Source: Undaria pinnatifida (lineage: Eukaryota; Sar; Phaeophyceae; Laminariales; Alariaceae). Taken from it: 64,000 nt of DNA. A program made the position numbers and the translations under genes. The notes below the pieces were generated by a model, which was given only the letters and a program-made list of their open reading frames with translations, was not told the DNA's origin and ran no database searches. Where the stretch lies: positions 7,460,994 through 7,524,993 of the forward strand of contig JABAKD010000019.1 of NCBI GenBank assembly GCA_012845835.1. Reading direction: 5' to 3'. Below, in pieces: positions 560 to 62,245 of this stretch (positions are counted from its first letter, which is position 1; each line of letters opens with the position of its first letter).

Positions 560-872
560 TACCATGAGGAACGCACTCGGCAAGTTTCGTCGCCAGACTA
601 AAGAGTCAGTCGGCGTGTGCTCGGATTTATCCGATCGAAATCTGATTAATAAAGCTCGGAATCGGATTCACTTCGAAAACGGTAGTAGTACATTGTTATG
701 ATTGTTAGTCTATATCGAACTCTCGGCATTACCTTACATACTGTACACGCAGACTATGATTGTGTGTATAGACTTTTTCTACTCTACCAAGTATTGTGAA
801 TCGAACAATTCGAAGCGCTGCCCTGCCCTACCCGAAGCATGGGTGCCGGCGAATGCTATGGGAGCCCTTGTA
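560..872 (+). mobile_element. Hairpin-ended element, copy a (long form)
   Basis: Aligns over about 300 bp with 46620-46863: both share AACGCACTCG, AGTCAGTC, CGGAATCGGATTCAC, a CTCTCGGCATTAC-like box and the end GGAGCCCTTGTA. The final 35 bases correspond to the GCATGGGTGCCGGC hairpin that is intact at 24419 and 41630, but here the 3' arm is damaged. The 63-codon ORF inside is not conserved in the other copies and is not a gene. Confidence 0.55.
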
Positions 873-1097
873 TGCCTAACTAATTACCTGTGAACGTTCC
901 CGTGCAAGCGGGGCAATTCGACCTACTCTCAAAACAGTACTCTTGCAACTCTCCGCTCTACCGCTCGCCACCCGGTCCCTAGCGACCGCACGCCCGTGCC
1001 ACGCCGGCCCCACTCATCAGCCCTCGGTGTCCCCGGCAACGAAACGGCCGACGAGTCCCAACTCCGCGAGCGGGGGGCATGAAAAGCCTCTCCTGGG

Positions 1098-1973
1098 GAC
1101 TGCTCGCGCACTCCCCCGGAAGGTGGAGAATAGTAAGAAAGTGCAAATCCCACCCAGCTCCTGGCGTACCACAGATTCACAGGTGTACTGCTGTGGTGCG
1201 TACTGCCGTACTGATGTGCTGCCGTTGTGGATTGGTTGGTACGTACTGCTCCACTACTGTTGTACTGCTGTGGTGGTGTGTTAGTCAGTGGGTGGGCGGT
1301 GGGTGGTGGGTGCTTGGCGGGTGACGGCTCGCGTTCTTCCCCGGAAGATGGAGAATCGTAAGAAAGTACAAATAAACCCCACCCAGCTCCTGGCGTGCCA
1401 CAGGTGTACAGCTGTGGTGCGTACTGCCATACTGGTGTGCTGCCTTTGTGGATTGGTCGGTACTTACTACTCCACAATTGTTGTACTGCTGTGGTGGTGG
1501 GTTGGTCAGTGGGTGGGTGGTGGGTTGTCGGTGGGTCTTTGGTGAGCTGCGGCGCACGCTCTCCCCCGGAAGGTGGAGAATCGTAAGAAAGTGCAAACTA
1601 ATCCCACTCAGCTCCTGGCGTACCACAGGTGTACCGCTGTGGTGCATATTGCCGTACTGCTCTGCTGCCGTTGTGGATTGGTCGGTACGTATTACTCCAC
1701 TGCTGTTGTACTGCTGTGGTGGTGGGTTGGTCGGTGGGTGGGTGGTGCGTGGTGGGTGGTGGGTGGTGGGTGTGCTTGGTGGGTAACAGCTCGCGCTCTC
1801 CCCCGGAAGGTGGAGAATCGCAAGAAAATGCAAATCCCACCCAGCCCCGGGCGTACGACAGGTGTACCGCCGTGGTGCGTATTACCATACTGGTGTGCTG
1901 CCGTTGTGGATTGGTCGGTACGAACTGCTCCACTGCTGTTGTACTGCTGTGGTAGTGGTTTGGTCTGTTGGTT
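1098..1973. repeat. Minisatellite, ~225-237-bp unit, four copies
   Basis: Four head-to-tail units start near 1111, 1335, 1561 and 1798, each opening with CTCCCCCGGAAGGTGGAGAA or a close variant. Each unit carries a CACAGGTGTAC segment, a TGCTGCCGTTGTGGATTGG segment and a GT-rich tail of GGGTGGGTGG type. Long ORFs run through the array in several frames on both strands because unit lengths are near multiples of three. Their products are low-complexity repeats and show no protein family. Confidence 0.9.
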
Positions 1974-2037
1974 ATATAGCACTACCCACTGAACCACGTA
2001 GTCACGTGACTACGTGGGCCAGTGGGTAGTTCTATAT
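1974..2037. repeat. 64-bp near-perfect palindrome
   Basis: The arms pair in the order ATATAG, ACTACCCACTG, CCACGTAGT, around a CACGTG centre at 2003-2008. The only unpaired positions are C/T at 1980/2031 and AA/GC at 1992-1993/2018-2019. A degenerate relative with the same ACCCACTGAACCACG and TGACTACGTGG blocks lies at 4690-4750. The palindrome sits exactly between the minisatellite and the decayed copia region. Confidence 0.9.
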
Positions 2038-2039
2038 GA

Positions 2040-3480
2040 CCAACGAAATATATGATTGCGAGTCCGCCAATTGACTCTCACCGACTTCGTCACAGGGATC
2101 TCCGGGGCTCTCCCCTCGCCTTCACCACCTTTACCTGCCCAGATGCATGACTCCCTGTCCCAGGAGGAGGGGGGGTCCGAGGCCGACGAAGAGAGCACGT
2201 CAGATCGAGGTGGGGGGGGGGAGTATGGACGAGCAGGACGAAGGTCTGGCTCGCCTGACCGACCTCGACGTGACGTAGGGGTTTGATCTGCACGCGTTCT
2301 GGCGGGAGCGCTCACAGGAGACACCTGCTGCCGGCGATGCTGGCAATCTGCACGCGTGCTTGCAGGAGCGCTCACAGGAGGCACCTGTCGCCGGCGATGC
2401 TGGCGACGGAACAGCCGAGACGATGGACTCGTCTCAAGAGGGCGTGGTGGACGCCTCCTCGGTCCCGGCAGGGAGGGCCGAAACAGTCGAGACGATGGGT
2501 TTGTCTCAATGGGGCGCGGTGGATGCCTCCTCGGTCCTGGCAGGGAGAGACAAAAGCGACTCAGGCGCATCAACAGCCTCCGGCACCGACCAAGGGAACG
2601 GCGATGATCCCCCCGCGGTTCTGTCGGGGAGGGCAGCTCAAGAGTTCAGTTGCTGGGGACGGCTGCCCCCGACAATAAGCGGCCGGACCCGGAGTCAGAG
2701 TCAACGCCTGCAAGGTGAATCTGCTCAATTTCAGCGTGTGATCGAGGACGCGATGTCGTACTGCGAAAAGTGGACGGAGTTTGAGAGTATTCTGAACGAC
2801 GGAGACCGCAATGGCCATGATGGCTGGAGGACCTGCTGTGGAAGACAATAAAGGGGAGTCAAACGTGTGCATGCCGAGTGGTTTTCCAGAAGATGTAGAA
2901 CCACCCCCGCAATTCGTAGCTGATGTAGAGTGTTCCCAATACAAAGCGGCGTGGCGTAAGGCCATGAATAATGAATTGGACGGTCACAAAACGACCGGTA
3001 CATACGAAGCTGCGACTTCGCCGCGAGGGCGGAAACTTGTAGGTGCAAAATGGGTATTCTCGTACAAGACTGACAAAGATGGTGTAATAGCGAAGACGAA
3101 AGCAAGACTTGCGGCTAAGGGCGTTAGCCAGGTGCAAGACGTAGATTACTTCCAAACGCTTGCACCAACCCCATCGTCAGCGTCAATCAAAATTCTAGCG
3201 GCCGTTGCAAATTAGCAAGGTCTGAAGATTTTCCCATTTATTTAGATGTAGCATGAAACTACCCGATGAGTGTGGTGACATGTCAGGAAATATTGTTCGC
3301 CTTAACAGATCACCATATGATCTAAAACAGAGTGGACGGTAGTGGGCCGGACTACTGGTAGAGACCGTGGTAGAATTCGGCATGGAGCAGGAAAAAAAAG
3401 GAAATAACGTCTTTGCGAGCGTGCGCGCTGGAGACGTGAATGGTTACGATAGTTTGCTCCTGAGTACTACGGTAATGCGT
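2040..3480 (+). pseudogene. Decayed Ty1/copia pol fragment (linker and start of reverse transcriptase)
   Basis: The frame at 2811-3215 encodes the start of an RVT_2 reverse transcriptase: AWRKAMNNEL, then LVGAKWVFSYKTDKDG, KARLAAKGVSQ and VDYFQTLAPTPSS, as in copia-type elements. Upstream, 2360-2851 in another frame is an acidic Ser/Gly/Arg-rich linker of the kind found between integrase and RT, containing a 60-bp (2287-2406) and a 72-bp (about 2420-2563) tandem duplication. After the stop near 3215, further RT motifs (GNIVRLNRSPYDLKQ) continue to about 3480 through stops and frameshifts. No LTR, integrase, active-site aspartates or RNase H is visible. It is a different lineage from the complete element at 16471. 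Confidence 0.85.
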
Positions 3481-3563
3481 GGCGAGTGAAGGGCCCCATT
3501 TGATCGCTGTTACGACGTCGGTCAGAGTCAATTAACGGACTCGCAAACATATATTTTGTTGGT

Positions 3564-3652
3564 TACAAGGGGCTACGCCGGCGGCCTGGACGGCCGCCGG
3601 TCGCAGCGCAGGATAGTAAATATTAAGAGGGTAAGAAGTAATGCCAAGAGTT
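3564..3652 (-). mobile_element. Hairpin-ended element, copy h
   Basis: Read on the minus strand it begins with an AACTCTTGGCATT box (complement of 3640-3652) and ends with a hairpin of arms CCGGCGGCC / GGCCGCCGG around a 5-nt loop, then CGTAGCCCCTTGTA. Related hairpin sequences occur at 59948 and, with changes in one arm, at 62024 and 62142. The overall architecture matches the copies ending GGAGCCCTTGTA elsewhere in the window. Confidence 0.6.
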
Positions 3653-3734
3653 AGACGAAGTTTGTTAATTCATATATGGGAGATACTGGAAAGGGAAAAT
3701 GCCGACAAATTTTTCCCGATTTCCCGTGTGCGGC

Positions 3735-4275
3735 GGAACAATGCGAGAAGGCAGCCTGGAAATTATGGGAGAGCATGGCGGTTCACCCCAGCTGGGTGAC
3801 GCTCTGCGTTGCTACGCAGAAAGGCGCGGCCACAGCTGCTGCTGTGCATATACCATTTGTAGCTTCGTGATGCTGCTGTGCATATACCATTTGTAGCTTC
3901 GTGATGCTGCTGTGCATATACCATTTGTAGCTTCGTCATGCTGCAGGCTCATCATAGCTTCAGCTACTGCTGTACATCATGTACATGTACGTGCTGCTGT
4001 AGACTACCGGGGGTTCAAAAATATTGAGAGTTCGCAGTTCTCCACGACGCCTAGCTGCTGCTGTGCATATACCATTTGTAGCTTCGTGATTCTGCTGTGC
4101 ATATACCATTTGTAGCTTCGTGATGCTGCTGTGCATATACCATTTGTAGCTTCGTCATGCTGCAGGCTCATCATGGCTTCAGCTACTGCTGTACATCATG
4201 TACATGTATACGTGCTGCTGTAGACTACCGGGGGTTCAAAAATATTGAGAGTTCGCAGTTCTCCACTACGCCTGG
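3735..4275. repeat. Two-level tandem repeat (219-bp block made of 34-bp units)
   Basis: A block of about 219 bp starting at 3834 is repeated from 4053. Each block opens with three 34-bp copies of GCTGCTGTGCATATACCATT plus GTAGCTTCGT, followed by a TACATCATGTACATGTA segment and a shared GGGTTCAAAAATATTGAG tail. The lead-in (GCGGAACAATGCGAGAAGG ... CACAGCTGCTGCTG) resembles 61335-61410. Short ORFs in both strands are by-products of the repetition. Confidence 0.9.
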
Positions 4276-4690
4276 GTGGCATGTGTTCTCGGGGATTACG
4301 AACTTTTCTTCCCCAGATCCTAGCACAAACCTCGCTTAGTGGCCTTTAGAGTGGCGACGCCGGCCAGGTAATCGACCCCTCCCCGTGTGTCGGAGGTCAG
4401 AGAACACGTACCGAAGAAATAACGCGAAGAAATTAGCCCTGTGTGCAGACTACGCACCAAACGTCTCACAGGGCACGATTTTTCGGAAATCTCGTCGTAG
4501 ATCTCGACGTCGAGGCCTCGCGCGCGCGCTACGGCGCCGAGCGGGCGGATCAGCTGAGCCGGTGGTTGCAGGCGAGGCGGGGGCACGCCTCAGCGAAGAA
4601 ACCGCGCGGAAAGGCGGTCAGAGGCGGGAGATATCCGCAGACGCAAGGATGTGCATATGTGAAAAGCGAACTAAGATATATAGATCTATA
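4276..4690. other. No gene seen
   Basis: A G+C-rich stretch with CTCGCGCGCGCGCTACGG near its centre. Overlapping ORFs of 80-112 codons exist on both strands, but none shows a recognisable motif or splice context. It ends at the degenerate palindrome. Confidence 0.4.
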
Positions 4691-4750
4691 AAGCATTACC
4701 CACTGAACCACGCGGCCACGTGACTACGTGGCGAGTTGGTAGTTCTATAT
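4690..4750. repeat. Degenerate relative of the 64-bp palindrome
   Basis: Shares TACCCACTGAACCACG, CACGTGACTACGTGG and GGTAGTTCTATAT with 1981-2037, but the arms no longer match fully (CGCGGC against ACTACGTGG and TTGGTAGT). It also directly precedes a dispersed repeat. Confidence 0.7.
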
Positions 4751-4756
4751 ATCCAA

Positions 4757-5443
4757 CACGGTCGCCTATGGGCCCAATTCTGTAGATTTTGTTTCCAGAA
4801 TTGCTGAAAAAACGATTTCTCGATGCGATCGTGGATTGGACGCGCCGAAATTTCGTGTTCTCCTCACACTTCATTCGACGAAATCAACAACGGCGTCGTA
4901 ATCTCTGAACGTGGCGAGTTCGTTGGGGGCTCCGATCCCCCCTTGGTGCACAGTGCTCACTCTACGGCCGGTGATTTGTGGCGGGCGCCGATCAGGCTTC
5001 TCTTCAAAAAAATTTCGTGTTCTCCTCACACTTCATTCGACGAAATCAACAACGGCGTCGTAATCTCTGAACGTGGCGAGTTCGTTGGGGGCTCCGATCC
5101 CCCCTTGGTGCACAGTGCTCACTCTACGGCCGGTGATTTGTGGCGGGCGCCGATCAGGCTTCTCTTAAAAACACATTTGGCGGCTGGTGTGTAGAAAACT
5201 GAGACAAAAACTCTATCGTCTCCCAACGGGCGAAAAACAGAATTTTGAGAGGATGTGACGGAAGGCCACAGGACAACACAAGCAACCTCTTACGCCCTAG
5301 TAGGGCATGGATCGAGATGAACTCTTCAGCGCTGTCACCTACTCTCATGTGACCTCGGAGCGAAGAGCAGTGACCATGGGTTGTCTCTATGTCGAGATCG
5401 AAGGTCAATCGTGTTTGTTGGACAATGTTGATCATGGCTGTTT
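4757..5443 (+). repeat. Dispersed repeat R1, copy A with internal 160-bp duplication
   Basis: Matches 33672-34405 and 34460-35182. Shared landmarks are GAAATTTCGTGTTCTCC, CGACGAAATCAACAAC, CGGTGATTTGTGGCGGGCGCC, GCATGGATCGAGATGAACTC and CCATGGGTTGTC. In this copy only, the segment 4849-5008 is repeated almost exactly at 5009-5168. No reading frame is conserved among the three copies, and no terminal repeats were found, so its class is unknown. Confidence 0.85.
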
Positions 5444-10050: not shown

Positions 10051-10054
10051 GGAC

Positions 10055-14458: not shown

Positions 14459-14749
14459 CCCGTCCCGTCCGAGACCCAGAGCAGCGTAGGGCACCAGCTA
14501 CCAGAGGTGTGAGACGAGGCATGCACGGCATGGGCTAGAAAACGTTGCCTGCAACAACTGCCCGCCACAGTATAAACGCGCGGAAGCCGCCATGGGTCAT
14601 GTTTTGAGTTTGCTTTACGTGGTTGCTGCTGTTGGGGTAGCTTGGGATAGACACAATCTAAAAGCGATCGATGCCGAGGAACGAACGCAGGCAAGGGGGT
14701 TGACACAACAAAGGAATAACTGACTGCTGTGCTCCAGCTAGCTACTGCT

Positions 14750-15712
14750 GTGGAGTGCCCTCATCAACTGAAACCCAGCAACAGACACACATCTTGCCCG
14801 GCTCGAGAGCAGGGGCGCCGGTCTGTCAAAGGGCTAATCCAGCCGTCGCGGTCATTTGTTATTCATGGTGCTGCGCTGTAGGCTTCATACGTGCAGCGGT
14901 TGGTTGTGTGTGTGCTTTTGGGCTGTCATGTGCTGTGTGCGTGCTGGCCATTTGGCTGCAGGTGTGGCTGCAAGACGACACATGATACGTCCAGAAGAAC
15001 GCGTGGTATACCAGTAGTAGATCGCTCTAATAATTCGCCTTTTACACTATTGCGTTTGGTGCTTCTGCAGTGGAGTGCCCTCATCAACTGAAACCAAGCA
15101 ACAGACACATCTTGCCCGGCTCGAGAGCAGGGGCGCCGGTCTGTTAAAGGGCTAATCCAGCCGTCGCGGTCGTTTGTTATTGGTGGTGCTGCGCTGTAGG
15201 CTTCATACGTGCAGCGGTTGGTTGCGTGTGTGATGTTGGGCTGTTATGTGCTGTGTGCGTGCTGGTCATGTGGCTGCAGGTGTGGCTGCAAGACGACACA
15301 TGATACGTCCAGAAGAACGCGTGTTATACCAGTAGTAGATCGCTCTATTAAGTCGCCTTTTTACATTATTGCGTTTGGTGCTACTGCAGTGGAGTGCCCT
15401 CATCAACTGAAACCCAGCAACAGACACACATCTTGCCCGGGCTCGAGAGCAGGGGCGCCGGTCTGTCAAAGGGCTAATCCAGCCGTCACGGTCGTTCGTT
15501 ATTGGTGGTGCTGCGCTGTAGGCTTCATACGTGCAGCGGTTGGTTACGTGTGTGCTGTTGGGCTGTCATGTGCTGTGTGCGTGCTGGCCATGTGGCTGAA
15601 GGTGTGGCTGCAAGACGACACATGATACGTCCAGAAGAACGCGTGGTATACCAGTAGTAGATCGCTCTAATCATTCGCCTTTTTACATTATCGCGTTTGG
15701 TGCTGTTGGAGT
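14750..15712 (+). repeat. Tandem repeat, 320-bp unit, copies 1-3
   Basis: Units begin at 14750, 15070 and 15389, each with GTGGAGTGCCCTCATCAACT, then a GAGCAGGGGCGCCGGTCTGT segment, a GTGCAGCGGTTGGTTG segment and ATTGCGTTTGGTGCT. A fourth partial unit (16177-16470) follows a 460-bp spacer, and a fifth (22848-23180) follows the copia element. ORFs through the array (138 codons at 15209-15625) only follow the repeat and carry no domain. Confidence 0.93.
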
Positions 15713-16176
15713 GTTCAGCATTTTGAGCGTGCTTGGTCTGCAGATACAGATAGGCTCAAACCGTTCCTTTGCGCGACGCTACGCAAAAACATTCTGCAGG
15801 AGGAGTTACTGTATGAAGAATGTGTATAACTTCGCCGGGTGAATACGCACATGAAAAAATTACATCTACTACAGCCCGATAAGATATTAGTACAACAACG
15901 ACGGACAACCTACAAAAAGAAATAAACAAATATCGCGTGAGCGATGGCGTGCGTTTCGTAGACGAATGTGCATACTACGACATCTGCGAAAGGTTTCCTA
16001 CGGCCAGCAACGAAAGCGGGAATGCAATTTTATTAGAGAGCAAAATCAGACGGACACCCTTCACAAACAAAAAAAAACCCCTAGACAACGTACATGACGC
16101 AAATGACCAGCCGAATTGCGACCAAGCAAATAATTGCAATGTTGGAGTTTGCAAGGTTCGACCCAATAGGCCAAGA
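15713..16176. other. Spacer within the tandem array; no gene seen
   Basis: Begins with GAGTGTTCAGCATTTTGAGC, which also follows the last unit at about 23180 and, diverged, appears at 43893-43930. The remainder is unique AT-rich sequence with a 98-codon ORF (15937-16233) of no recognisable type. Confidence 0.5.
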
Positions 16177-16470
16177 CAGACACACATCTTGCCCGGGCTC
16201 GAGAGCAAGGGCGCCGGTCTGTCAAAGGGCTAATCCAGCCGTCGCGGTCATTTGTTATTGATGGTGCCACGCTGTAGGCTTCATACGTGTAGCGGTTGTT
16301 TGCGTGTGTGCTGTTGGGCTGTCATGTGCTGTGTGCGTGCTGGCCATGTGGCTGCAGGTGTGGCTGCAAGACGACAGATGATACGTCCAGAAGAACGCGT
16401 GTTATACCAGTAGTAGATCGCTCTAATAATTCGCCTTTTATATTATTGCGTTTGGTGCTTCTGCAGTGGA
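16177..16470 (+). repeat. Tandem repeat, partial unit 4
   Basis: Starts inside the unit at AGACACACATCTTGCCCGG and runs to the normal unit end at CTTCTGCAGTGGA, where the copia LTR begins. The last five bases, GTGGA (16466-16470), are the target duplication. Confidence 0.9.
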
Positions 16471-16985
16471 TGTTCGTGATAGCGGCATGTATGTATCAAC
16501 TGTACTGCGGTGAAACTCTGATTGGTTGGTTTGAATAGCAGAACTGTTGATTGTATGTTGTTGTACCAGAATACTCTTCTTGTGGTGCTACGGTACTTCG
16601 GTAGATTGTACATGTGCACGAGTTATACATCGGACCGTAGTGGTGTGTCGGTACGTTGGAAACATTGACGAATAGGAACATTCCTGTAGTGTTGCTAACA
16701 CGATATAGCTTGTCTCAACGAACAGCCTAGCAATAAGTTACAGTTACATACGTTGTGTCACGGAGGTAAGTTACAGGGATCGTCTCGTGGTATCACCCAC
16801 GAGCAGTCCCACGGGTATGTACGAGTAGGCACTATGCGAGGAGGTTAAGGTATTCGACTACGAGCGGTTGTTACTGGGCTGTGGAGAGTTGGCCCACATG
16901 ACCCACTCCACTTTCTGACCTGTCTCTCCAGACATTGGTCTCTCTAATATAATACCTTTCTCCAGAAGCCACTGATTTATCAACA
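16471..16985 (+). repeat. 5' LTR of the copia element
   Basis: 515 bp. Differs from the 3' LTR at about 16636 (C against T in ATCGGACCGTAG) and at the penultimate block (TTATCAACA against TTACCAACA). The following sequence, CGCTATAGCGCTATCGG, is where a primer-binding site would lie; it does not resemble the usual initiator-Met site. Confidence 0.95.
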
Positions 16986-17073
16986 CGCTATAGCGCTATC
17001 GGTCGACTGCTGTACGTCCCCCTGGACTGTGTTCGACGAGACTGTGAGGGCGGCTTGATCAACCGGCCTCGTT

Positions 17074-18557
17074 ATGGCTGAACAGGAGGGAGGTGACCCT
17101 GCGGCAAACCAACAGGGTGACCCGCAGGGCTTTGGTGAGAGAATGGATTCCTTAGAGTCTCGAGTGTCTCAAATGCTGGATATGTTTTCTAACCAGCAGC
17201 AGATGCTCCAGACAGTTGTTGAGACACACCAGAGGGAGAATGTGAAGTCCTCTAGTTCGCGTGCTGCGCCGCGAGGCATCGAACTAGAGTCTGGTGTGCA
17301 CCAATCGGGTGCTGCCGGTAGGACCGCGGGGAGTACGGGAGGCGATACCCTAGGCTTTGGCGTGTCCGACATGAGGGTTGGGAGTAGGGGTGTTGTAGAC
17401 TCAGGCTTGAACCCGCGTGTTTCTGATGAGAATCGTTCCTCTGTTCCTGCAGTAAACTTTGGTTCGGTTGACGGGACTGTTGGTGGGGCTTTAGGTAGCC
17501 AGTCCTCTGTTCCGCCCACTACCTCAGCAAGTGAGTGGTGGGGAAAAGTCGCTAGTGGGAACACACTGATCCCAGCGGCTGACAGTAGTTCGGGGGAGAG
17601 CTTGGGTGGGGGTCTTTTCAAGAAAGTTCCCAAGGCTCCTGAATTTATCGGTACTGATGTATCGTATCCTTCATGGTCGCAGAATTTTCTGCTCAAAGCT
17701 CGTCACTACAATCTCAGCGAGCCGTTCACCTGTGATATCGACATTAAAATCGCCGACGTTAATTTCGACTTGACCCCTTGGGTAGAGAAGGGATACAGCG
17801 TTGGTGTACTGCGTCAGCATGAGATTGCTTGGTGGTTTCTGTTCGACTGCTTGAAGAAAGACAGCCACAAAAACATGGCAAGGCAAGCTGGTTCCCCGTA
17901 TAAGGCTTTTCGCGCGCTCAAGGATCACTTTCTACCGTTGAGTCAGAGTCAAATTCGAATGCAGGAAGAAAAACTGAAGTCTCTGTGCATGCGTCCCCAC
18001 GAGAATCCCACAATTTCTTTTCATCCATCAGAGAGACGCTTGGTGTGTTGACCATGCTTGAAGTAACGAAGGATGATCGTGAAGTGTGCAATCTCATGCT
18101 GGAAGGACTGTCCCCCGAGTACAAGACTTTACGTGAGACTCTTGTGGTGTTCTGTTCGAATGACCCCTCTTTCATCGAGACCAAAGTGCGTGAGCGGTAC
18201 CTAGACTTGCAAGCACAGGGTGGTTCTAAAAAGCAGAATAGCGTTGCTCTGGTGTCTAGGCCTGCGAAGAAGAAGAGTAACTTCAAAAAGCACAACAAGC
18301 AGAAGTCTAACTCTGAGTCTGATTCCTCGAAGAAGTCTTTTCAGGGGAGGTGTTACAAGTGTGGGGAGGTGGGTCACATGAAGCTCGACTGCAAGGCTCG
18401 CATCATCCCTCATCCTTCCCAGACTGGAAAGCCCGAGGCCGACGAGAATGAGAGCGGTGAGCAGTGTGCTATTCCTGATTCGGATCTGGTGTGCAGAAAT
18501 GGTAGTTACCGCATGAGTGATGACTGCCAAAAAGGTGTTGCTTGCAGCATGTCGTAA
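17074..18557 (+). pseudogene. gag: Copia gag polyprotein region, frameshifted
   Basis: Starts at ATG 17074, the first ATG of a long open frame about 90 bases after the LTR. Residues 1-60 are Gln-rich and could form a coiled coil, followed by a Ser/Gly-rich spacer. A capsid-like domain begins around FKKVPKAPEFIGTDVSYPSW (17617-17676). The frame from 17074 turns to nonsense at about 18012 and ends at 18051. The sense continues one frame over with NFFSSIRETLG and LEGLSPEYKTLRETL, so one base appears to be missing near 18010-18014. A nucleocapsid zinc knuckle, CYKCGEVGHMKLDC (CX2CX4HX4C), is at 18351-18392. This frame stops at 18557, overlapping the pol frame. Gag would package the RNA in virus-like particles. 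Confidence 0.9.
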
Positions 18558-21500
18558 GGAAGTGGTCTTGAAGGCGTGTGATGATTTGAGTAGGATGTGG
18601 TATGATGTCTCTGGTCTGAAGCGTCTGATGACGTCCCGTGATGATCTGATTATGAGCGCCGTCAGTAATGATATGATCCTGAAAGCTGTCAACAAGGCTA
18701 GATATGTCGAGGATTGGTATGCTGACACAGGCACTTCATATCACATGACTGATTCCCTGTCTTGCATGAGAGACTTGAAGCCTTGCCACAGAAGTGTGAA
18801 TGGAATTGGTGGCGTGTCTTGTGAAGTAGCTTACTCCGGAACGCTAGACTTGGTATTTGTGACTGCTGACAGTGAGTTCTCCGTGGAATTGAAGAACGTA
18901 TTGTACTCTCCCAACTTGGGGTATAATCTCTTTTCTCCGAGTGCAGAGTTTGATGGTGAGTCATGGAATGGTCTTGGTGGTCCTAATGGTGTTATGACTG
19001 CATTCAATGGACAAGTAACTTTTCAGAACTTCGATGGCATGCTGATTGCGTCTGCGTATCGCCTAGGAGAAGCCTCTGTTGGTACGGTGTTGGCTGCTTT
19101 CACTCCCGCCAACCCCAAGCATGAAACTACGATGGATATCAACGATTTCCACAATATTTATGCACATTCGCACGAGGGTCTGCTTCGCACTACTGCAAAG
19201 CGATTAGATACCAAGTTGGTTGGTGACATGCATGCTTGTTCAGGGTGTTCGATGTCGAAGGCTATTCGGAAAGGAATCGTTCGGGAGACTAAAACTCGAT
19301 CGGATAAAAAGTTGGGCAGAGTTTTTGTTGACCTGGGAGGAAGGAAGGACATTGCGTCCGTAGGGGGAAAACATTACCCCATGATTGTGAAGGATGATTT
19401 CACGAGACGTGCATGGCTGTATTTTTTGAAAAATAAATCAGACGCTGGCAGTGCTTTCCGGAGTTTTCTTGCGAGTGTGCGTGCTGATGGTGTCCCGTCA
19501 TTGGTTGAGATTGTTAGGTCTGACAATGGTGGGGAGTTTTTCGGGGGGGAGTTTGCATCTGTGTGCAACGAGCTTTTGATCAAACAAGAGTTCACACCGG
19601 CTTATAGTCCGCAATATAATGGTGTTGCAGAGCGTGGGCTGGGATTGATAGAGGAGGCCGCGATGGCGGCTCGTATTCAAGCTAAAGTTCTTTTTGGGCA
19701 TGTACAGTTACCTAAGACTGATAAACTCTGGGCTGAGGCTATGCACTGGGCTTGCAAAGCGATGAACCACACGTGTTCTGCTAACCCTGAATCCAAATCG
19801 CCGTATGAAATGTGGTATGGTGAACCTCGTCCCGCTAGACCGTATCCGTTTTTGAAGCCCGCCTACTGTAGGTGGCAGCGACCGTCAAAGCTGCTGCCGA
19901 AGGGTGAGAGTTGTTTCTATGTCGGTCCTTCGAGAGACCACCCGCGTGATTGTCATAGAGTACTTACGAGGGCTGGTACTATTCAAGAAACGAGGGATGT
20001 GACGTGGGAGGTGCTGCCGTCACAGCTCCCTCCGCTGCAACCTTCTTTGCCGATAGAGGTAGCAGAGGAGGGAGGGGAGGATAGTGACGACGATGTTGAA
20101 ACCGAGATATGGCCGCTTGTGGGAAGAGGAGTCGCTCACACACTTTTGAAACGTGATGCCGTGCCCTCTGGTGCGGGAGTCGAGGAGGTTGAGAGTGTTG
20201 GCGCAGGTAGTATAGGCCCGTTATTTTCTGTTCCATCTTCCCCTGCTGAACCGTCTGCCCCCGTGAACATTTCTTCTGGTAGTGTAGCTCCTTCTGTGTC
20301 TTCGCCTGTGAATGACGGGGAGGGCCAGGGAGGGCAGGAATCAGGAGAGGTAGAGATGGGGGATCTGGGAGGGGATGATGAGGTAGAGTCGATGGGGCAG
20401 GGAGGGCATGATGATGAAGAGTCGATTGGATCGGGAGGACTGGTAGAGGCGGAGGCATCCCCTCCAGCCGCTCGTCGTCCGCGGCATGTGGCCGAGCTTG
20501 CTGACTCTAATACTTCCGCGCGTGAAAATGATGAAGTGAGAGAAGGTAGGACTCGCGCGCAAACTCGTGCAGTCAACCAGCAGAGTGTACCCGGCCTCAT
20601 GGCCACCCTAGGACCCATCTTCGCGACAGAGGTCGTGTACTCATTGTTGTCGGAGCAGAGAGCAGGTGATGAGACGGAATTGCCGAAATAACTGGTTCAG
20701 GATGTAGAATCGGAGCCTGGTAGTTATCAGGAAGCCCAGCGTTCGAAGTACGCTAAGATTTGGGAAGGAGCCAGGTCTGCCGAAATTGAAGGCTTGATAA
20801 GAGCAGGAACGTTCACGTTGGCAGTAAAAGTCCCGATAGGCTGTAATGTGATTGATGCTAGATGGGTTTTCAAGTGGAAAGCAGACGAAACAGGAAAGAT
20901 AGTGAAGGCCAAGGCTAGGCTTGTAGCGAAGGGCTTCAAGCAGAAGTATGGTGTGGATTATCTTGAGACATTCTCGCCTACCGCAAATGCTGCATCTTTA
21001 CGATTGCTGATAGTGTTGGCGTGTTTGTACAATTTGGAATTACTCCACTGGGATATTGAGCAAGCATTTGTTCAGTCGGAATTGGATCACGAGGTGTTCA
21101 TGAAGTTGCCTCCTGGCTGCGGGTCGATGTCAGGAAAGGTTGTCCGTTTGAACAAGAGTTTGTACGGATTGAAGCAGGCTACTAGGACATTTTACAAGAG
21201 GCTGGTGTCGGAACTGAAGAGGATTGGTTTTGAGCAGTCAATGTCTGACCCCTGTGTCCTGCGTTTCATGATGGGAGACGAGGTATTGGGGATGGTCGCG
21301 ATCCACGTGGATGACATTCTGTATGCAGGAAGTAAGAGCCTTGCCAAGGTGGTTGTGGAAGCACTAGGTGACTCTCTTCCTACGAAGGACTTGGGGGAGG
21401 TCAAGTTCTTTCTAGGTTGTGAATATATTCGCGACCGTGAGGCTGGTACGATTGAGATTTCTTAGGAAAGTTATATCAGGAGTGTTCTCGAGAGATTCAA

Positions 21501-22257
21501 TATATGTCGCACCAGCTCGATCCCTGCTTCTCTTGCCAATGGTAGCAGGTCCGTGATGGAGGATGAGGGGGCAGGAGATGTGCCGTTCCGAGAGGTGGTG
21601 GGGAGCCTGATGTGGATCGCCAGCCAGACAAGGCCCGACATCGCGAATGCTGTGCGGGCGGTGGCGAGGCACTCTCACGAACCAAAGAGACCCCACTGGA
21701 AGGCAGCTCAGAAGATTCTCAATTATCTTCTGGAAACGGCGCATCTGACTTTGAAGTTCAAGCAGGATAGTTCGGTAGACGCAGGCACGTTGGTGTATGT
21801 AGATGCTGACTTTGCAAGTAGGGCCACTGACCGTAGATCAGTTTCGGGTGCGATGGTTTTCGTGGCGGCGATGCTTGTAGTTTGGATTTCTAGGACGCAG
21901 AAATGCGTTTCACAGTCAACTTCAGAAGCAGAGTATCTTGCGATGGGAGATGGTGTAAAGGAGGCTCTGTTTGTAAACGGAATGCTTCAGCTCCTGAGGC
22001 CTAGTGCGAAGCCTCGTAAGATAGATGTCCTTGAAGACAACGAGGGGGCGATTGCGCTCGCAGAGAACCCGCTGAGCTCGAGTAGGAGTAAGCACATCGA
22101 TGTGAGGCACCACTTTCTCAGGAATCTGACCGAGGAGGGTGTGATCGAAGTCACCCACGTCCCCAGCGAGAAACAACACGCGGACATCCTCACGAAGGCG
22201 TTGCCGAGAGATCTTTTTGAAGTTCACCGCGACTTTGCACTTGGTATCAAGAAGTAG
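18517..22257 (+). pseudogene. pol: Copia pol region: protease, integrase, RT, RNase H, with two in-frame stops
   Basis: One frame from about 18517 to the TAG at 22255-22257, interrupted by TAA at 20689-20691 and TAG at 21463-21465. Protease: WYADTGTSYHMTDS, catalytic Asp at 18724. Integrase: an H-H/C-C zinc site at 19150-19250, then a DDE core with VFVDLGG, VRSDNGGEFF and the final Glu in YNGVAERGLG. An acidic linker follows. RT: DARWVFKWKADETG, ARLVAKGFKQKYGVDYLETF, DIEQAFVQSELD, LYGLKQA and the active site IHVDDILYAG. RNase H: VDADFASR, SEAEYLAM, LEDNEGAIAL and the end HADILTKALP. The TAG falls where copia proteins normally have Gln (S-Q-x-x-Y-I). The element cannot make an intact polyprotein as sequenced. 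Confidence 0.95.
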
Positions 22258-22332
22258 AAGTCTGAGTCGTTTTGTTTTTGTTGTTGTTTGATATGTATTT
22301 GGTCTGGTAGATACAACAGCCCCTAGGGAGGG
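22258..22332 (+). other. Copia 3' untranslated leader to LTR with polypurine tract
   Basis: A T/G-rich stretch ends in CCCCTAGGGAGGG directly before the LTR TGTTCG. The AGGGAGGG run is in the expected place for the plus-strand primer. Confidence 0.7.
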
Positions 22333-22847
22333 TGTTCGTGATAGCGGCATGTATGTATCAACTGTACTGCGGTGAAACTCTGATTGGTTGGTTTGAATAG
22401 CAGAACTGTTGATTGTATGTTGTTGTACCAGAATACTCTTCTTGTGGTGCTACGGTACTTCGGTAGATTGTACATGTGCACGAGTTATACATCGGATCGT
22501 AGTGGTGTGTCGGTACGTTGGAAACATTGACGAATAGGAACATTCCTGTAGTGTTGCTAACACGATATAGCTTGTCTCAACGAACAGCCTAGCAATAAGT
22601 TACAGTTACATACGTTGTGTCACGGAGGTAAGTTACAGGGATCGTCTCGTGGTATCACCCACGAGCAGTCCCACGGGTATGTACGAGTAGGCACTATGCG
22701 AGGAGGTTAAGGTATTCGACTACGAGCGGTTGTTACTGGGCTGTGGAGAGTTGGCCCACATGACCCACTCCACTTTCTGACCTGTCTCTCCAGACATTGG
22801 TCTCTCTAATATAATACCTTTCTCCAGAAGCCACTGATTTACCAACA
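22333..22847 (+). repeat. 3' LTR of the copia element
   Basis: 515 bp matching the 5' LTR except for two C/T differences. Followed by the GTGGA target duplication and resumption of the tandem repeat. Confidence 0.95.
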
Positions 22848-32300: not shown

Positions 32301-32393
32301 TACAAGGGCTCCGTATGGGTAGGGCAGGGAAGGAGTTGGAATTGTTCCATCCGACACAAACAAAAATTGAAATTGAAAGGAATGCCAAGAGTT
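32301..32393 (-). mobile_element. Hairpin-ended element, copy e (hairpin degenerate)
   Basis: The minus strand starts AACTCTTGGCATTCCTTT and ends with CTGCCCTACCCATACGGAGC followed by CCTTGTA. It shares the CTGCCCTACCC block with copies at 820 and 24406, but lacks a good hairpin. Confidence 0.55.
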
Positions 32394-41534: not shown

Positions 41535-41672
41535 AATTTTTGCACACTTGGCATTGCCTTCATTCTACTGACTTACTAAAACCTGATGAATACCAAAGAC
41601 ACTGATGATGTATATTTTCCTATCCGGAGCATGGGTGCCGGCGAATGCCGGCAACCATGCGGAGCCCTTGTA
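41535..41672 (+). mobile_element. Hairpin-ended element, copy c
   Basis: ACACTTGGCATTGCCTTCA upstream box, then hairpin GCATGGGTGCCGGC - GAAT - GCCGGCAACCATGC and GGAGCCCTTGTA. A second, weaker box (ACTGGGCATTCGCGTCATTA) precedes it at about 41502. Followed at 41695-41716 by a fragment of module R2. Confidence 0.65.
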
Positions 41673-46618: not shown

Positions 46619-46863
46619 CAAAACATCTACGAGGAAACGCACTCGAAACGTCTCTTCGTGGTCAGACTAGAGGGTCAGTCTGCGTGGGCTCGGAATCGGA
46701 TTCACGCAAGAAGCGGCAGAAGTGAGTAGTCCACTGTTAGTCTATATCGATCTCTTGGCATTACTTTACATTCTACACGCGTAGACTATGTGTTGTACGG
46801 TAACGGTATTGAATCGAACAAGTCGAAGTGCTGCCGTGCCCTACCCGGTGCGGAGCCCTTGTA
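46619..46863 (+). mobile_element. Hairpin-ended element, copy d (hairpin lost)
   Basis: Long-form relative of 560-872 (GAGGGTCAGTCTGCGTGGGC, CGGAATCGGATTCACG, GATCTCTTGGCATTACTTTA) ending CGGAGCCCTTGTA. The hairpin region is reduced to CTACCCGGTGCGGAGC. Confidence 0.55.
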
Positions 46864-48383: not shown

Positions 48384-48525
48384 TACAAGGGCTCCGCTCC
48401 GCGGGCGGCTGACGCCGCCCGCTTCGCTCGCGCAAGGAAGAATACAACTAAAACATGTAAAGGGGGCAGAAAGAAGAGGCCCATGACTTGGTGCGACTAC
48501 GTAGCGAATTGATAATACCAAGAGC
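48384..48525 (-). mobile_element. Hairpin-ended element, copy f
   Basis: The minus strand begins AGCTCTTGGTATTATCAATT, continues with a CTTCTTTCTGCCCCCTT block, and ends in the hairpin GCGGGCGGC - GTCA - GCCGCCCGC followed by GGAGCGGAGCCCTTGTAA. It aligns with 56699-56822. Its hairpin differs completely in sequence from copies b and c while the terminal box is the same. Confidence 0.65.
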
Positions 48526-48835
48526 TGCTTGTGGAGAGCTATTAATAGTGGCCCTGTGCTGTACACTCTGCTGTGTGCTTGTTGGCGATATCACGCTCTG
48601 ATCGGCAGTATGTGTAATTTGCGGGGGGGGGGGGACAGGGACCGAGAGAACAATCAACCGAAGAAATCAAGAAGACGAGTACACAACACTTACGTCCCGG
48701 TACCTGGTACCTGGTACTTCGCCTCGTAAACCTGGTACTGCTGTATGTTCGAAAGAAAGCACAGCACAGCACGAAACTGCACCGCACCGCAAGGCAAGGC
48801 ACCGCACGGTGCTGCGCTGCTGAGCTATATAGATA
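48515..48835 (-). repeat. Compound repeat R6, copy 1
   Basis: On the minus strand: a GCACGGTGCC/GCACAGCAC-type GC-rich segment, CAGGTACCAGGTACC, a TGTGTACTCGTCTTCTTGAT-like segment, CTCTCGGTCCCTGTCCCCCC and ATTACACATACTGCCGATCA. These correspond to 56210-56415 and 56500-56710 on plus. A run of 13 G lies at about 48627. Confidence 0.7.
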
Positions 48836-55850: not shown

Positions 55851-56710
55851 GCTCAGCAGCGTAGCGTCGTGCAGTGCCGTGCCCTGTGATGCCCTGCCGT
55901 GCCCTGCAGCTCAGCAGCGCTAGCTCAGCAGAGCGCAGCGCCGTGCGGTGCCGTGCTTTGCCGTGCTGCGTGCTTTGCTGTACTTTTACTAGTTCGGACA
56001 TGCCAGTAACATTCCAAATATCATACGACGTACGCGTACTATTGATACCACACCAGATTCGTACATATTACGTTGTTGGATCACAAACAATGCACCTCCA
56101 GCTCAGGTCAGCCCGGCAATATATAGCTCAGCAGCGCAACGTAGCGCAGCACAGTGCGGTGCTGTGTCGTGCGGCGCTGTTCGTTATTTTACACATACAG
56201 CAGTAGTACCAGGTATGATACAGGTACCAAGTACCATCATGTGCGTGTTGTGTACTCGTCTTTTTGCTTCCTTCAGTTATGATTGCCCTCTCTCGGTCCC
56301 CGTGTTTCCACGCCCCCGCAAATACCACACGTACTGCCGTTCAGAACGTGACATCAACAAGCACACCGCACAGCGCAGAGCAATTAGCTCTGCACAAGCA
56401 CCTCTTGGAATCTAATTTACGTGTTTCAGTTGCAGTCTTACTTGCGCGAGCGTCCACGGAGCGGAACCCTGTGCGTTCTTTGGAACACACAAAGTACCAC
56501 CAGGTATTATGCGAAGTACCAGGTACCAGGTACCGGTAGTACGTGTGTATTCGTCTTTTTGCTTTCGTCGTTTTTTGTCTTCCATCTATCTCGGTCCTCT
56601 TCGCGTTTATTTCGCAAATTACACCCGAACTACTGACGATCAGAACGTGACATCAACATACAGCACAGCACAGACAGGGCAATCAGCTCCGCACAAGTAG
56701 CTCTTGGCTT
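55851..56710 (+). repeat. Compound repeat R6, two direct copies with GC-rich head
   Basis: 55851-55985 is built of GTGCCGTGCCCTG / GCAGCGCC-type units (inverse of GGCACAGCACGGC). It is followed by two ~205-bp direct copies at about 56210-56415 and 56500-56710, sharing a GTACTCGTCTTTTTGCTT-like segment, TCTCTCGGTCC, CAGAACGTGACATCAACA and CACAAGTAGCTCTTGG. A third copy is inverted at 48515-48835. Confidence 0.75.
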
Positions 56711-56822
56711 TATCAAATCGCTAGTTGCACTAAATCATGAGCCTCTTCTTTCTGCCCCCTTCACATTTAGTTAGAATCTTCCTTACGCCAGCGTAGCGGG
56801 CGGCTGAGCGGAGCCCTTATAG
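56699..56822 (+). mobile_element. Hairpin-ended element, copy g
   Basis: AGCTCTTGGCTTTATCAAAT box, CTTCTTTCTGCCCCCTTCAC block, GCGTAGCGGGCGGCTGAGCG and end GGAGCCCTTATAG. Aligns with copy f, but the hairpin loop and second arm are deleted. Confidence 0.6.
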
Positions 56823-57640
56823 ATATGCTTCGAAATATATAAATAGCTGTGGACTTAGCTGAGCTGGGGGTGCATTTATTGTGATTCAACAAAATGTAGT
56901 ATGTACAAACCTTGTGTTGTTGTACAGTGGTAACCCATTTTAAGGCGTACCGGTTTAAGACCATATTAGAGATAGGACCAGAAAAATCGGCTGGTCACGA
57001 CAAAGAAAACAGACAAGACCAAATTGCCCCTTATCCCCTGACTCGGTCCTAGGGCCCAGATTAACGAAGAGCACGGAAAATCGTAATTCGATTATTTTTT
57101 TAATTTCATGAAAAATACAAGAAAAAATCGACTCTGCTTCTCATCAAGGAATGGCGTAGTGCGCTCTAGAATTAAGAAACGCGAAAGGGTCAACGAACAC
57201 CCGTGGGCAACGACCGAGGCGAGCGATGGCTTGCGTCCCCCCCGGAGCGCCGCGGTTAGCGGCAGATTGTTTTCGCAGGCAGCGGCTAGGAGGCTATGGC
57301 TCTAGGCGTCTCTTGGTTGGACTGGCGCCGCCCCGCCGCCCCACACGGGCAGCAGCGACGGGGATATAGCGGTCGAATTTCTGAGCGAAGTCGTGATGTG
57401 GTAGTTGGTCGTGTAACATTCGAAGTGCAAGGCGACGAAAATCTGGGTTTGTGGCTGTCTCGGTTGTTTTCGAAGCGTCGCAGGCGGTCTGGGCTGTGCT
57501 AAGGGCCGTCGGAAGCCGCGCTGCAGCTGCTCCGTCCTACCTCTCGCAATTGTGGCTTTTCGCCTCTCAATCAGCCGACGACATGGCACCAATTCGCGTG
57601 GGCGGCTTCGGTTACATGGAACATGCCATGCCTAGGTGCA

Positions 57641-58839: not shown

Positions 58840-58945
58840 AAAGCACGCAGCACGGCAAAGCACGGCACAGCACCGCACAGTATTGCTCCGCACGGCAGGG
58901 CAAGGCAACTCACGGCACCGCACGGCGGTGCGTTTGCTGAACTGA
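58840..58945. repeat. GC-rich compound repeat (GGCACAGCACGGC type), copy 1
   Basis: AGCACGCAGCACGGCAAAGC followed by CACAGCACCGCACAG and CACGGCAGGGCAAGGC. The same type recurs at 59070-59180, 59240-59360 and 61685-61810, and inverted at 55851-55985. Confidence 0.85.
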
Positions 58946-59069
58946 GCTGATCTAATGTGCCAAGCTGAAGTCAGCTGGGACCTGGTATGATCATACTTGT
59001 GGATCTAAAAAAAAGGGTGAAGGAAATCACAGAAAGAAAGCTGGACCTACGGTAGGAAGAAGTGTACAT

Positions 59070-59370
59070 GTAGGTACAGCAAAGCAGCACGGCACAGTAG
59101 CACCGCACAGCGCCGCATGGCGCTGCGCTCTGCTGAGCTAGCGCTTTGTTGCGCTGCTGAGCTGAGCTGAGCTGAGCTGACGAGCCAAGCTGAGCCAAGC
59201 TGGGGCCTGATATGATGATACTACATGCACGAAGGATTAGGTACAGCACGGCACAGCACGGCACAGCACCGCGCAGCATGGCACAGTACCGCACCGCACG
59301 CCACGGCACGCCAGGGAACGGCACTGCACGGCGCTGCGCTGCTGAGCTAGCCCTGCGGTGCGCTACTGGG
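59070..59370. repeat. GC-rich compound repeat, copies 2 and 3
   Basis: Two blocks of GGCACAGCACGGC-type units, each ending GGCGCTGCGCTGCTGAGCTA or a variant. Between them is an (AGCTG)n run, CTGAGCTGAGCTGAGCTGA at 59158-59178, and CCAAGCTGAGCCAAGCTGG. Long minus-strand frames here are Ala/Cys-rich artefacts. Confidence 0.85.
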
Positions 59371-59947
59371 AGGAGCTGAGCTGATGATGTGCATTTCTCG
59401 CAGTACTCCTCGATCGCTTTCTCCGAGGATTTGCGGGGGCGCGACGCTACCGCCCCTGCATCCGTCCTGGGTGGGTTTCCTCGCACGTCTTTCCGAATCG
59501 TACACTTCTTGATGAAACCGGCGAGCTCTTGCAGTCTCTTCCCCGAAATATTGCCGGAGATACATGAGCCAAGCTGAGATCATCAGCCGGGACCTCTGGT
59601 ATATGAAGCTCGTGCAACTACAAAAAAAATTGTAGGAAGAAACCAAAGAAAAGCTGGACCGTTCCGCAAGTAACGAAAGGAGGCGGTGTCCAGGTAATAT
59701 GTGGTATTCCCAAAAAACAGGAGTTTTGAACTTAAGGGAAGCAAAAAAGTTCCGGAAGACGTTCAGCTTCCCGAAAAAAAGGCCTTTTAAACTCGAATTT
59801 GAAACAAAAATCAAAATCCAAGCGCTGAGAAGCACTGTTTCAGGCATCCGCCCGCTCAGCTGTTCCGAGAGGAGAATATATTAAAAGTTAGTGTGGGAAG
59901 CGAAAAAAATGGAGGCCGCTCCGGAAATCGATATTTGTAAGTAGTTC
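59371..59947. other. Possible captured exon and unassigned sequence
   Basis: The minus-strand frame about 59560-59370 reads ISGKRLQELAGFIKKCTIRK and then SSEKAIEEYCEKCTSS, with normal composition, between GC-rich repeats. It may be a captured gene fragment, but no family is recognised. 59830-59947 matches 61900-62023 (GTTTCAGGCATC, AAATGGAGGCC, AATCGATATTTGTAAGTAGT), upstream of another hairpin-ended copy. Confidence 0.35.
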
Positions 59948-60062
59948 TACAAGGGGCTTCGCCGGCGGCCTGGACGGCCGCCCGTCGCCGCCTTGCGTAA
60001 TACCTAGATTGTTAGCAGCATTGTGGCTGAGGATGGGGACCAGACATATTGCCAAGAGTTGA
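59948..60062 (-). mobile_element. Hairpin-ended element, copy i
   Basis: The minus strand starts AACTCTTGGCAATATG and ends with hairpin arms GGCGGCC / GGCCGCC (as at 3564) followed by GCGAAGCCCCTTGTA. Also part of a ~66-bp tandem duplication (GTTAGCAGCATTGTGG / GTTAACAGCATGGTGG) extending to about 60140. Confidence 0.6.
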
Positions 60063-60151
60063 GAGCGCTCTACACATGTTAACAGCATGGTGGCGAAGGA
60101 TGAAGATCAGACGTACTGCCAAGAGTTGAGAGAGCTCTACGCGCTGTCCAC

Positions 60152-60486: not shown

Positions 60487-60592
60487 TAAAAGTGACGCTG
60501 CTGCTGTACAGACTGATGTTACCAATCGAGCACTTGGTCGTGAATGATAAGTATTGTAACACAATGTCATCTTATATTAGGTTTTGAACTAA

Positions 60593-60960: not shown

Positions 60961-61210
60961 CATGTACTCGAATCTTGGTCACAACCCTGATACCTGCATT
61001 GTATGCTGTTCAGCTCTGCCTACTCCATGCGAGAGGCTCGACCGCACCTACATACCTTCGAAACAGACGCGCAACGACAACAACAGAACGCTAACTGCTG
61101 TACTGATACGTGATACCTGGTATCATACGTGATACGCTTGTGTGTGTCTTGCTAATCTTGGACACTGGTCACACAGATCCAACCCGCATTGCTTAAGGCT
61201 GCTCACAGCT
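60961..61210 (+). repeat. Direct repeat R7, copy 1
   Basis: GTACTCGAATCTTGGTCACA, CATTGTATGCTGTTCAGC and CACTGGTCACACAGATCC recur in the same order at 62428-62690 (copy 2). Confidence 0.85.
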
Positions 61211-61334
61211 GGTGATAACTACTATTGTTGTGTGTTCTGGTAGCATATGGAGGATGGCGATGCGAGAAGGTGCAGGTAGGGAGTATGACGTGTTGCAGGT
61301 GGGAGCGTCTTTACTTCAAAGCGAATATATGCGG

Positions 61335-61560
61335 CGGAATGCGAGAAGGCGATCTATCACTAGCAATGTGACGCGATGACCTACAGCGTAGCGCCGTAGA
61401 AAACCCCATCACAGCTGCTGCTGTATACCTCTGCAGCCACGTTGACAGTAGATACGTGCGGTAACTCCATCACAGCTGCTGCTGTAGATAACATTCGTGT
61501 AGATTACTGCTGTACATACCACACGTGCTGCTGTAGAATATATGCGCGCAGCCCTCTAAT
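61335..61560. repeat. CAGCTGCTGCTG-rich block
   Basis: Three CACAGCTGCTGCTGTA-type units spaced by GTAACTCCAT and similar sequence. Related blocks are at 3735-4275 and 63775-63930. Confidence 0.75.
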
Positions 61561-62023
61561 CTCTCGGATTAACGAAGCCTGGATGGCAAATATTTTGTGG
61601 GCGTTCCAATTACATCCTAGATTGTACCTCGGTACTGCTGGATGATACTTCGTCGAATGAGACCTGGCATGTACGAAAGAATAAGTACGGAACAGCACGC
61701 AGCACGGCACAGCACCGTACCGCACGGCAGGGCACGGCACTGCGCGGCGCTCTGCTGGGTTAGCGCTGCGGTGCGTTACTGAGCTGAGCTGAGCTGAGCT
61801 GAGCTGGGACCCGGTATTACGATACTTCGTAAACAAAGTAACACAAAGAGAAGCCGGGTTTGAACGTGCAAAACACGGCGCTTTTCAGATGAAAACGCGC
61901 TGAGGAGTTCTGTTTCAGGCATCTGAGCCCGCTCAGCGGTCCGGAAAGGAGAACATCTTGATGTTAGTGTGTGAAAGGAAAAAAATGGAGGCCACTCAGG
62001 AAATCGATATTTGTAAGTAGTTC
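61561..62023. repeat. GC-rich compound repeat, copy 4, and flanking shared sequence
   Basis: 61685-61810 holds AGCACGGCACAGCACC-type units and a (GAGCT)n run, CTGAGCTGAGCTGAGCTGAG. 61900-62023 matches 59830-59947. Confidence 0.8.
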
Positions 62024-62245
62024 TACAAGGGGCTTCGCCGACAACCTGTGCGGCCGCCGGTCGCAGACTCAATGCCAAGACATTGAGAGCGTGCGCTGCG
62101 CACTCCACTCTGAGAAGTGTGTGGTGTGTAAATAGTTCATCAAGGGGCTTCGCCGACGACCTGTGCGGCCGCCGGTCGCAAACTCAATGGCAAGACATTG
62201 AGAGCGTGCGCTGCGCATTCCACTCTGAGAAGTGTATGATGAACT
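62024..62245 (-). repeat. Hairpin-ended element, copies j and k as a ~113-bp tandem duplication
   Basis: CAAGGGGCTTCGCCGACAAC/GACC, GTGCGGCCGCCGGTCGCA, CAAGACATTGAGAGCGTGCG and CACTCTGAGAAGTGT each occur twice in order. The hairpin arms are mismatched (CCGACGACC against GGCCGCCGG), unlike the clean arms at 3577. Confidence 0.8.

Follow-up and report, generated by a model that had tools for sequence, protein, structure and literature searches.

Bacterial single-strand transposons of the IS200/IS605 group have hairpins at both ends and insert 3′ of a short target. Canonical Helitrons carry a hairpin 10–12 nt before the 3′ end, as stated in the excerpt of PMC5148889, and the single most abundant family of the brown alga Ectocarpus is, according to the excerpted text of PMC12477816, a non-autonomous element of ∼600 bp with a 3′ end conserved with RTE-X long interspersed nuclear elements (LINEs). 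We analysed a stretch of 64,000 nucleotides from Undaria pinnatifida (contig JABAKD010000019.1, positions 7,460,994–7,524,993 of the forward strand; hereafter the window, to which all coordinates refer), which is eukaryotic DNA rich in repeats, and describe in it a family of short elements that combine a fixed 3′ end with an upstream box and, in part of the copies, with a subterminal hairpin. In our preferred reading, held tentatively and with somewhat less than even confidence, these are short non-autonomous mobile elements of at least three subfamilies that are moved by a single-strand, rolling-circle-like nuclease. They resemble IS200/IS605 elements in a hairpin shortly inside the presumed cut end, an apparent insertion 3′ of a short target and the absence of inverted repeats; IS200/IS605 elements differ in being bacterial and in having hairpins on both sides, and no TnpA-like gene was recognised in the window.

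Ten loci in the 64 kb window carry an end of the type (G)GAGCCC(C)TTGTA, with or without a single-base change, besides decayed tandem copies. Eight of them, named here by the position of the end, match one of these forms exactly (872, 24462, 41672 and 46863 on the plus strand; 48384, 32301, 59948 and 62024 on the minus strand) and two have one mismatch (3564 on the minus strand, GTAGCCCCTTGTA; 56821 on the plus strand, GGAGCCCTTATA). All ten main termini close with TTGTA or TTATA, hence with TA throughout. The box CTCTTGGCATT occurs with at most one mismatch at 11 sites in the window, against 1.3 expected by chance, and all 11 have a terminus on the same strand, with the box 58–279 nt upstream of it; when boxes were placed at random in 10,000 trials, at most 4 of 11 were coupled to termini. 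The claim of a preliminary description of this DNA, that at least ten sites combine box and terminal sequence, is borne out by this coupling. Ten of its sites were confirmed, one of which, given as 56812, really ends nine bases on at 56821 on the plus strand, and its minus-strand site at 62142 proved to be a decayed tandem copy of 62024, ending TTGAT at 62139, and no separate locus. A scan with the paired motif scored the ten loci at 29.5–41.3 and the next locus in the window at 17.5; the motif was trained on the same ten copies that it scores, and the top of 30 Markov-sampled windows reached 28.9, the weakest locus (62024, 29.5) lying barely higher.

The copies fall into subfamilies A (872, 24462, 41672, 46863 and 32301), B (3564, 59948 and 62024) and C (48384 and 56821, with a decayed tandem partner at 56470), and measure about 240 to 1,120 bp in those copies for which an end was placed. 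When the 2,500 nt preceding each of the ten ends were searched for common words, box and end words ranked top, and among the words listed there was no convincing third shared motif and no convincing shared 5′ motif; a few words occur in five of the ten upstream stretches. Between the three subfamilies, neither the word search nor pairwise alignment found anything in common except box and end. Within subfamily A, one pair is identical at 24 of 25 positions of box and end versus 154 of 213 in the body. The corresponding figures for one pair of subfamily C are 11/12 (end) and 9/13 (box) versus 238/321 (body), and for the other 7/12 and 12/13 versus 247/316.

The 3′ boundary is sharp in most pairs. 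Pairwise alignments cover the end in 10 of the 45 possible copy pairs; in six of these the homology breaks off directly at TTGTA or 1 nt beyond it, and in one it does so 3 nt beyond it. One exact empty site was also found, for the subfamily B copy at 3564–4686 (minus strand; 1,123 bp and complete by this test), which runs from 5′ GATCTATATATC at 4686 to 3′ TAGCCCCTTGTA at 3564. Its right flank (3481–3563) and the palindromic repeat on its 5′ side (4687–4757) have contiguous relatives at 1966–2120 on the plus strand, in the same order and orientation and uninterrupted, and when the two flanks are joined the alignment to this paralogous site crosses the junction gap-free. Because the joined flanks match 1966–2120, the limits of the element can be set at 4686 and 3564; no target duplication is present there except a possible TA. 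The palindrome at 4687–4757 is 86% identical to 1973–2044 and ends TTTATA before the element. The element itself contains a box (3640–3650), a hairpin (3578–3600) and a 226-bp tandem duplication (3834–4278). Its palindromic neighbour, present at 1966–2044 and 4687–4757, is a short repeat that forms an almost perfect palindrome (TATATAG...CTATATA) and is apparently a small element of the foldback type, and the subfamily B copy sits at the right edge of one of the two.

The stop points and the gap-free paralogous site uphold the idea, already voiced in the preliminary description, that the element is mobile and has a fixed hairpin end; the empty site envisaged there exists for 3564, and the 5′ TC considered there is found at none of the three 5′ ends that could be placed. 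Were the sequences not mobile but functional hairpins, for example at conserved 3′ ends of host transcripts, the fixed order of box and hairpin on one strand would be accounted for. The empty site contradicts this for one copy, insertions lie inside other repeats and no Rfam family reaches the gathering score, and we give this explanation hardly any credence.

The three placed 5′ ends are preceded by TTTATA, CTATATA and ATATATA and start with GATC, GCTC and GCTC, respectively; read directly, their flanks are free of duplications, a possible TA excepted. Eleven ends were scanned, over up to 6 kb upstream, for duplications of at least 9 nt, and no such match was located at any placed 5′ end; the scan also picked up the shared flank of 59948 and 62024. 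The Copia element of the same window has a plain 5-bp duplication (GTGGA, read from its flanks), and such marks can therefore survive in the window. The 5′ flanking base is A in all three placed copies; the first base of the 3′ flank is T in three, A in three and G in four of the ten. Comparison of the first 30 nt with the last 120 nt revealed no terminal inverted repeats in five elements. The inverted 5′/3′ match was no better than in shuffled sequences in four of these (two of the 5′ ends are approximate), and the weak match in the subfamily C copy ending at 56821 (p 0.03) is one of ten tests. No 5′ terminal hairpin is seen at the three placed 5′ ends (z between −0.4 and 0.4).

These junctions bear on a reading in which the final TA represents a duplicated 2-bp target or a 2-bp crossover core, so that the element would end ...CCCTTG and would owe its movement to a serine or tyrosine recombinase or to a DDE transposase acting on unlike ends. 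The TATA directly 5′ of the element in the three placed copies and the TA that closes all ten main termini would follow naturally. Such a process is nevertheless hard to reconcile with the lack of a terminal inverted repeat, with the TG found at the insertion point in the 1966–2120 paralogue and with a subterminal hairpin, which is not known to be required by enzymes of these classes; we consider it improbable.

The hairpins were folded as DNA and compared with 200 shuffled sequences (z-scores). A clear GC-rich hairpin lies 12–17 nt before the end at five of the ten loci, and a sixth (62024) is weak; six had been reported earlier, a count that agrees if 62024 is included. The spacing from stem to end is 12 nt in subfamily A, 14 nt in B and 17 nt in C. 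The hairpins of 24462, 41672 and 3564 are far stabler than their shuffles (z of −5.7, −5.2 and −4.7). The stems of 59948 and 48384 are plain, with z-scores of −1.9 (11 of 200 shuffles fold as well) and −1.2 (24 of 200, GC-rich shuffles also folding), and that of 62024, with three G·T pairs and a z-score of +0.4, is no better than shuffles. The stem of the own subfamily is not formed in 872, 32301 and 56821, the first and last of which retain one arm only, and 46863 has lost the A stem, a different weak stem being possible 7 nt before the end (z −1.6). Copies with a reduced or lost hairpin thus number four of ten in the window and are not the majority that would have spoken against the preliminary description.

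Part of this variation has a simple reading in the alignments. The hairpin-less subfamily A copies align as CCCTACCC+ATACGGAGCCC (32301) and CCCTACCC+GGTGCGGAGCCC (46863), and 24462 has CCCTACCC, the hairpin and then ...CCCATGCGGAGCCC; a deletion between two CCC runs would leave the sequence of 32301 after one later change and that of 46863 after two. The subfamily C copy at 56470 has lost its stem too. Loss of an unstable palindrome would thereby explain part of the stem variation, and stem swapping as the main process was rejected, loss fitting several copies better. Of the three unrelated stem sequences proposed previously, the A stem does represent the true sequence difference from the B and C stems; CCGGCGGCC and GCGGGCGGC are not clearly unrelated and may be related, both being writable as GGCGGC(C)GTC(C)AG(G)CCGCC. 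Likewise, the proposed replacement of the stem sequence holds between A and B/C, and within subfamilies part of the variation is better described as palindrome loss.

Canonical Helitrons (Helitron1) are alike in their subterminal 3′ hairpin, their unlike ends and the lack of a long target duplication, as far as the excerpts of PMC5148889 and PMC4067079 describe them. The hairpin is matched here by the five clear and one weak cases, of which only the A stem has a spacing of 12 nt. The family differs in having no CTRR terminus, as had been noted before, since all ten copies end TTGTA or TTATA; in starting with GATC or GCTC and not with TC (three copies only); in lacking an A^T target, the 5′ base being A in 3/3 and the 3′ base mixed; and in possessing an extra internal box together with a shared end of 12 nt. 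Helitron2, Helentron and HINE elements (DINE-1 type) are closer in their non-CTRR ends, 3′ hairpin, short non-autonomous copies and AT-rich or T-rich targets (excerpts of PMC3627910 and PMC4067079). They differ from the present family, in which three to five copies revealed neither a 5′ hairpin nor inverted repeats of an asymmetric or subterminal kind, the box stands 58–279 nt from the end without an inverted partner, and the target ends in TATA and not in TT or TTTT as in those excerpts (PMC3627910, PMC4067079).

Of the 131 open reading frames (ORFs) of at least 110 residues, 113 were included in the protein scan, most Copia ORFs being scanned separately, and no Rep-helicase was recognised among the 113. 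With 5′ TC, CTRR, A^T, asymmetric inverted repeats and a 5′ hairpin all wanting, the suggested membership in a divergent Helitron group is not sustained. Because the end sequences, the A^T target, the asymmetric repeats and the 5′ hairpin do not fit, we do not file the family as a Helitron; at best it functions like one. That the copies are true derivatives of canonical Helitrons or of Helitron2/Helentron (HINE-like) with eroded ends would agree with the subterminal 3′ hairpin, the absence of a long target duplication and the A on the 5′ side, but the other group-defining end features tested are absent, and we regard it as very improbable. A literature search on unusual algal Helitron ends yielded only work on Fusarium as relevant, and a word search with the end, box and stem strings yielded nothing related, judged by title and abstract.

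In the single-strand reading that we prefer, a nicking-and-joining nuclease of the HUH/rolling-circle type, encoded elsewhere, would recognise box and hairpin on a single strand and cut just 3′ of TTGTA. The cut strand would be joined to an AT-rich target that has itself been cut behind a similar TA (TATA^), the new copy would have neither the usual 5–20 bp target duplication nor inverted terminal repeats, and the inserted hairpin, being a palindrome, would often be deleted. We favour an HUH-type single-strand enzyme because the hairpin lies 12–17 nt inside the cut, the junction is gap-free and there are neither inverted repeats nor long duplications; from such features we infer the enzyme class, the cutting site and the roles of box and hairpin.

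Several observations weigh against this proposal. An empty site in another locus with both sides preserved is available for one copy only (3564), and with looser scoring the flank match of this copy enters the element by 12 nt. Three of the 10 end-covering pairs remain homologous beyond the end, by ∼20 nt in 24462/32301 and in 872/46863 and by ∼127 nt in 59948/62024, so that the expected stop directly after TTGTA applies to most of the window pairs and not to these. The duplication scan lists 9–12 nt matches with one mismatch upstream of several ends, which we attribute to chance or local duplication; a 2-bp target duplication is an equally good reading of the TA at both junctions. No mobilising enzyme or transposase was recognised in the 113 ORFs, Copia apart. 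The 5′ TC, the CTRR terminus, the A^T target and the asymmetric inverted repeats all fail, the distance from box to end varies almost five-fold, and at the 5′ ends neither a shared motif nor a significant hairpin could be detected. Since a rolling-circle element requires a start that is recognised, the missing conservation at the 5′ end is the weak point of the proposal; a LINE-tail system accounts for it better.

In a LINE-dependent (short interspersed nuclear element-like, SINE-like) system, the box, the hairpin and TTGTA would be the 3′ tail of an unseen LINE, whose reverse transcriptase would start copying at the tail of any RNA that carries it, leaving the 5′ parts free to differ. The conservation across subfamilies is indeed one-sided, at the 3′ end only, and the abundant 3′-conserved family of Ectocarpus offers a precedent for a non-autonomous element of this sort. 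LINE-tail families such as RTEX-N1 of Ectocarpus likewise have a common 3′ end and differing bodies (excerpt of PMC12477816). Compared by description, they differ from the elements studied here, which have a 0-bp junction at the single empty site, carry at most a possible TA duplication at the three placed 5′ ends and show by eye no poly-A or short-repeat tail. The variable box-to-end distance (58 to 279 nt) also speaks against such a tail, as does the lack of a LINE reverse transcriptase among the 113 ORFs, where the RVT_2 match is of Copia type. We consider a LINE-dependent origin possible, on the unlikely side. A tRNA-derived SINE was dropped as a candidate, no tRNA being found in the window (bacterial mode), as was an RNA gene or transcript end, the Rfam search of the window giving no match at the gathering score.

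The single-strand reading can be taken further, to an undescribed class of eukaryotic single-strand transposons with a one-ended, two-part signal (a box at free distance, and a hairpin with GAGCCC(C)TTGTA) that would be cut after TA and would tolerate almost any other end. We regard this as doubtful; if true, unrelated DNA segments would become mobile by gaining one end. If genome-wide data agree, the group would be abundant, with ten loci in 64 kb, and likely to have been missed by detectors that rely on TC...CTRR or on inverted terminal repeats. An autonomous partner would tell whether it is a second eukaryotic rolling-circle or single-strand system beside Helitrons or a LINE tail at a variable box distance. 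In sequence collections, the box-gap-end pattern matched one viral and ten prokaryote contigs, about the level estimated for chance, and no family hairpin was seen by eye in these; the pattern is narrow and recovers only 1 of the 10 window loci. Three longer patterns had no matches in viral contigs.

The subfamily A copies on the plus strand comprise 549–872, 24147–24462, 41545–41672 and 46623–46863. The first (5′ end approximate, from homology with the 46863 copy) has a box at 720–730, the left hairpin arm only and the end GGAGCCCTTGTA. The second is a head-to-tail dimer, 24158–24206 being repeated at 24297–24345, with boxes at 24184 and (decayed) 24323, a hairpin at 24419–24450 and its end at 24462. 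The third was delimited from box to end only and has a hairpin at 41629–41660; the fourth (5′ end approximate) has a box at 46752–46762 and has lost the A-type hairpin. The minus-strand copy at 32301–32391, likewise delimited from box to end, has also lost its hairpin. The 3′ flank of the 46863 copy matches 39514–39600 from 2 nt before the end onward, and the hairpin is absent from that match. The 3′ flank of 41672 starts like three other repeat copies, a match left uncounted as the repeat may itself begin at that point. The flanks after two A ends (24463–24482 and 32282–32300) share a stretch, ATAAAATGAATRCCG, and then diverge.

The two further subfamily B copies lie on the minus strand. That at 59948–60125, from box to end, has a hairpin at 59962–59984, and its box lies inside a 67-bp tandem duplication with copies starting at 60125 and 60058. 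In that at 62024–62241, a segment of 115 bp with box, hairpin and end is duplicated in tandem, the termini lying at 62024 and (decayed) 62139. The ∼127 nt that these two have in common past the end suggest that the pair may be a duplicated locus.

In subfamily C, the minus-strand copy at 48384–48825 would measure 442 bp with GCTCAGCAGCGC as its 5′ end, as placed by homology with the copy ending at 56821; it is preceded by CTATATA and has a box at 48514–48524, a hairpin at 48401–48422 and the 3′ end GGAGCGGAGCCCTTGTA. The plus-strand copy at 56126–56821 is a head-to-tail dimer with a box at 56701–56711. Its first unit (56126–56470) has lost the hairpin and has a decayed terminus, and its second (about 56471–56821) has lost the right hairpin arm and ends CCCTTATA. 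The dimer is bracketed by an inverted repeat (56047–56920), the left arm of which (56047–56125) stops at 56125, giving the left boundary; the other arm (56838–56920) resumes at 56838, 16 nt after the end. Arrays rich in GCTCAGC- or GCACGGC-like units at 55851–56138, 58840–59380 and 61640–61800 resemble the 5′ part of subfamily C, and the terminus scan matched no family terminus in them.

Elsewhere in the window, the single Copia retrotransposon (Pfam RVT_2 and rve; 16471–22847) has long terminal repeats (LTRs) that are 99.4% identical (alignment 16468–16985/22330–22847), and its target is a repeat of roughly 320 bp with copies at 14741–15713, 16176–16470 and 22846–23185. A 338-bp direct repeat (11270–11607/14121–14458; 100% identical, 2.85 kb start to start) could represent the LTRs of a young element, and no coding sequence for it was recognised in the window ORF scan. 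A 586-bp inverted repeat (5541–6126/8282–8866), 97.8% identical and with a spacing of about 2.2 kb between its parts, has the appearance of a recent element of the foldback or long-inverted-repeat type. On the minus strand, downstream of the subfamily A copy at 32301 and on the same strand, a split PTPA gene is represented by exon-like ORFs at 29428–29970 (E 5.5e-27) and 30209–30619 (E 7.7e-11) and by an FGNNAFR motif at 31422, and is apparently an intron-containing host gene.

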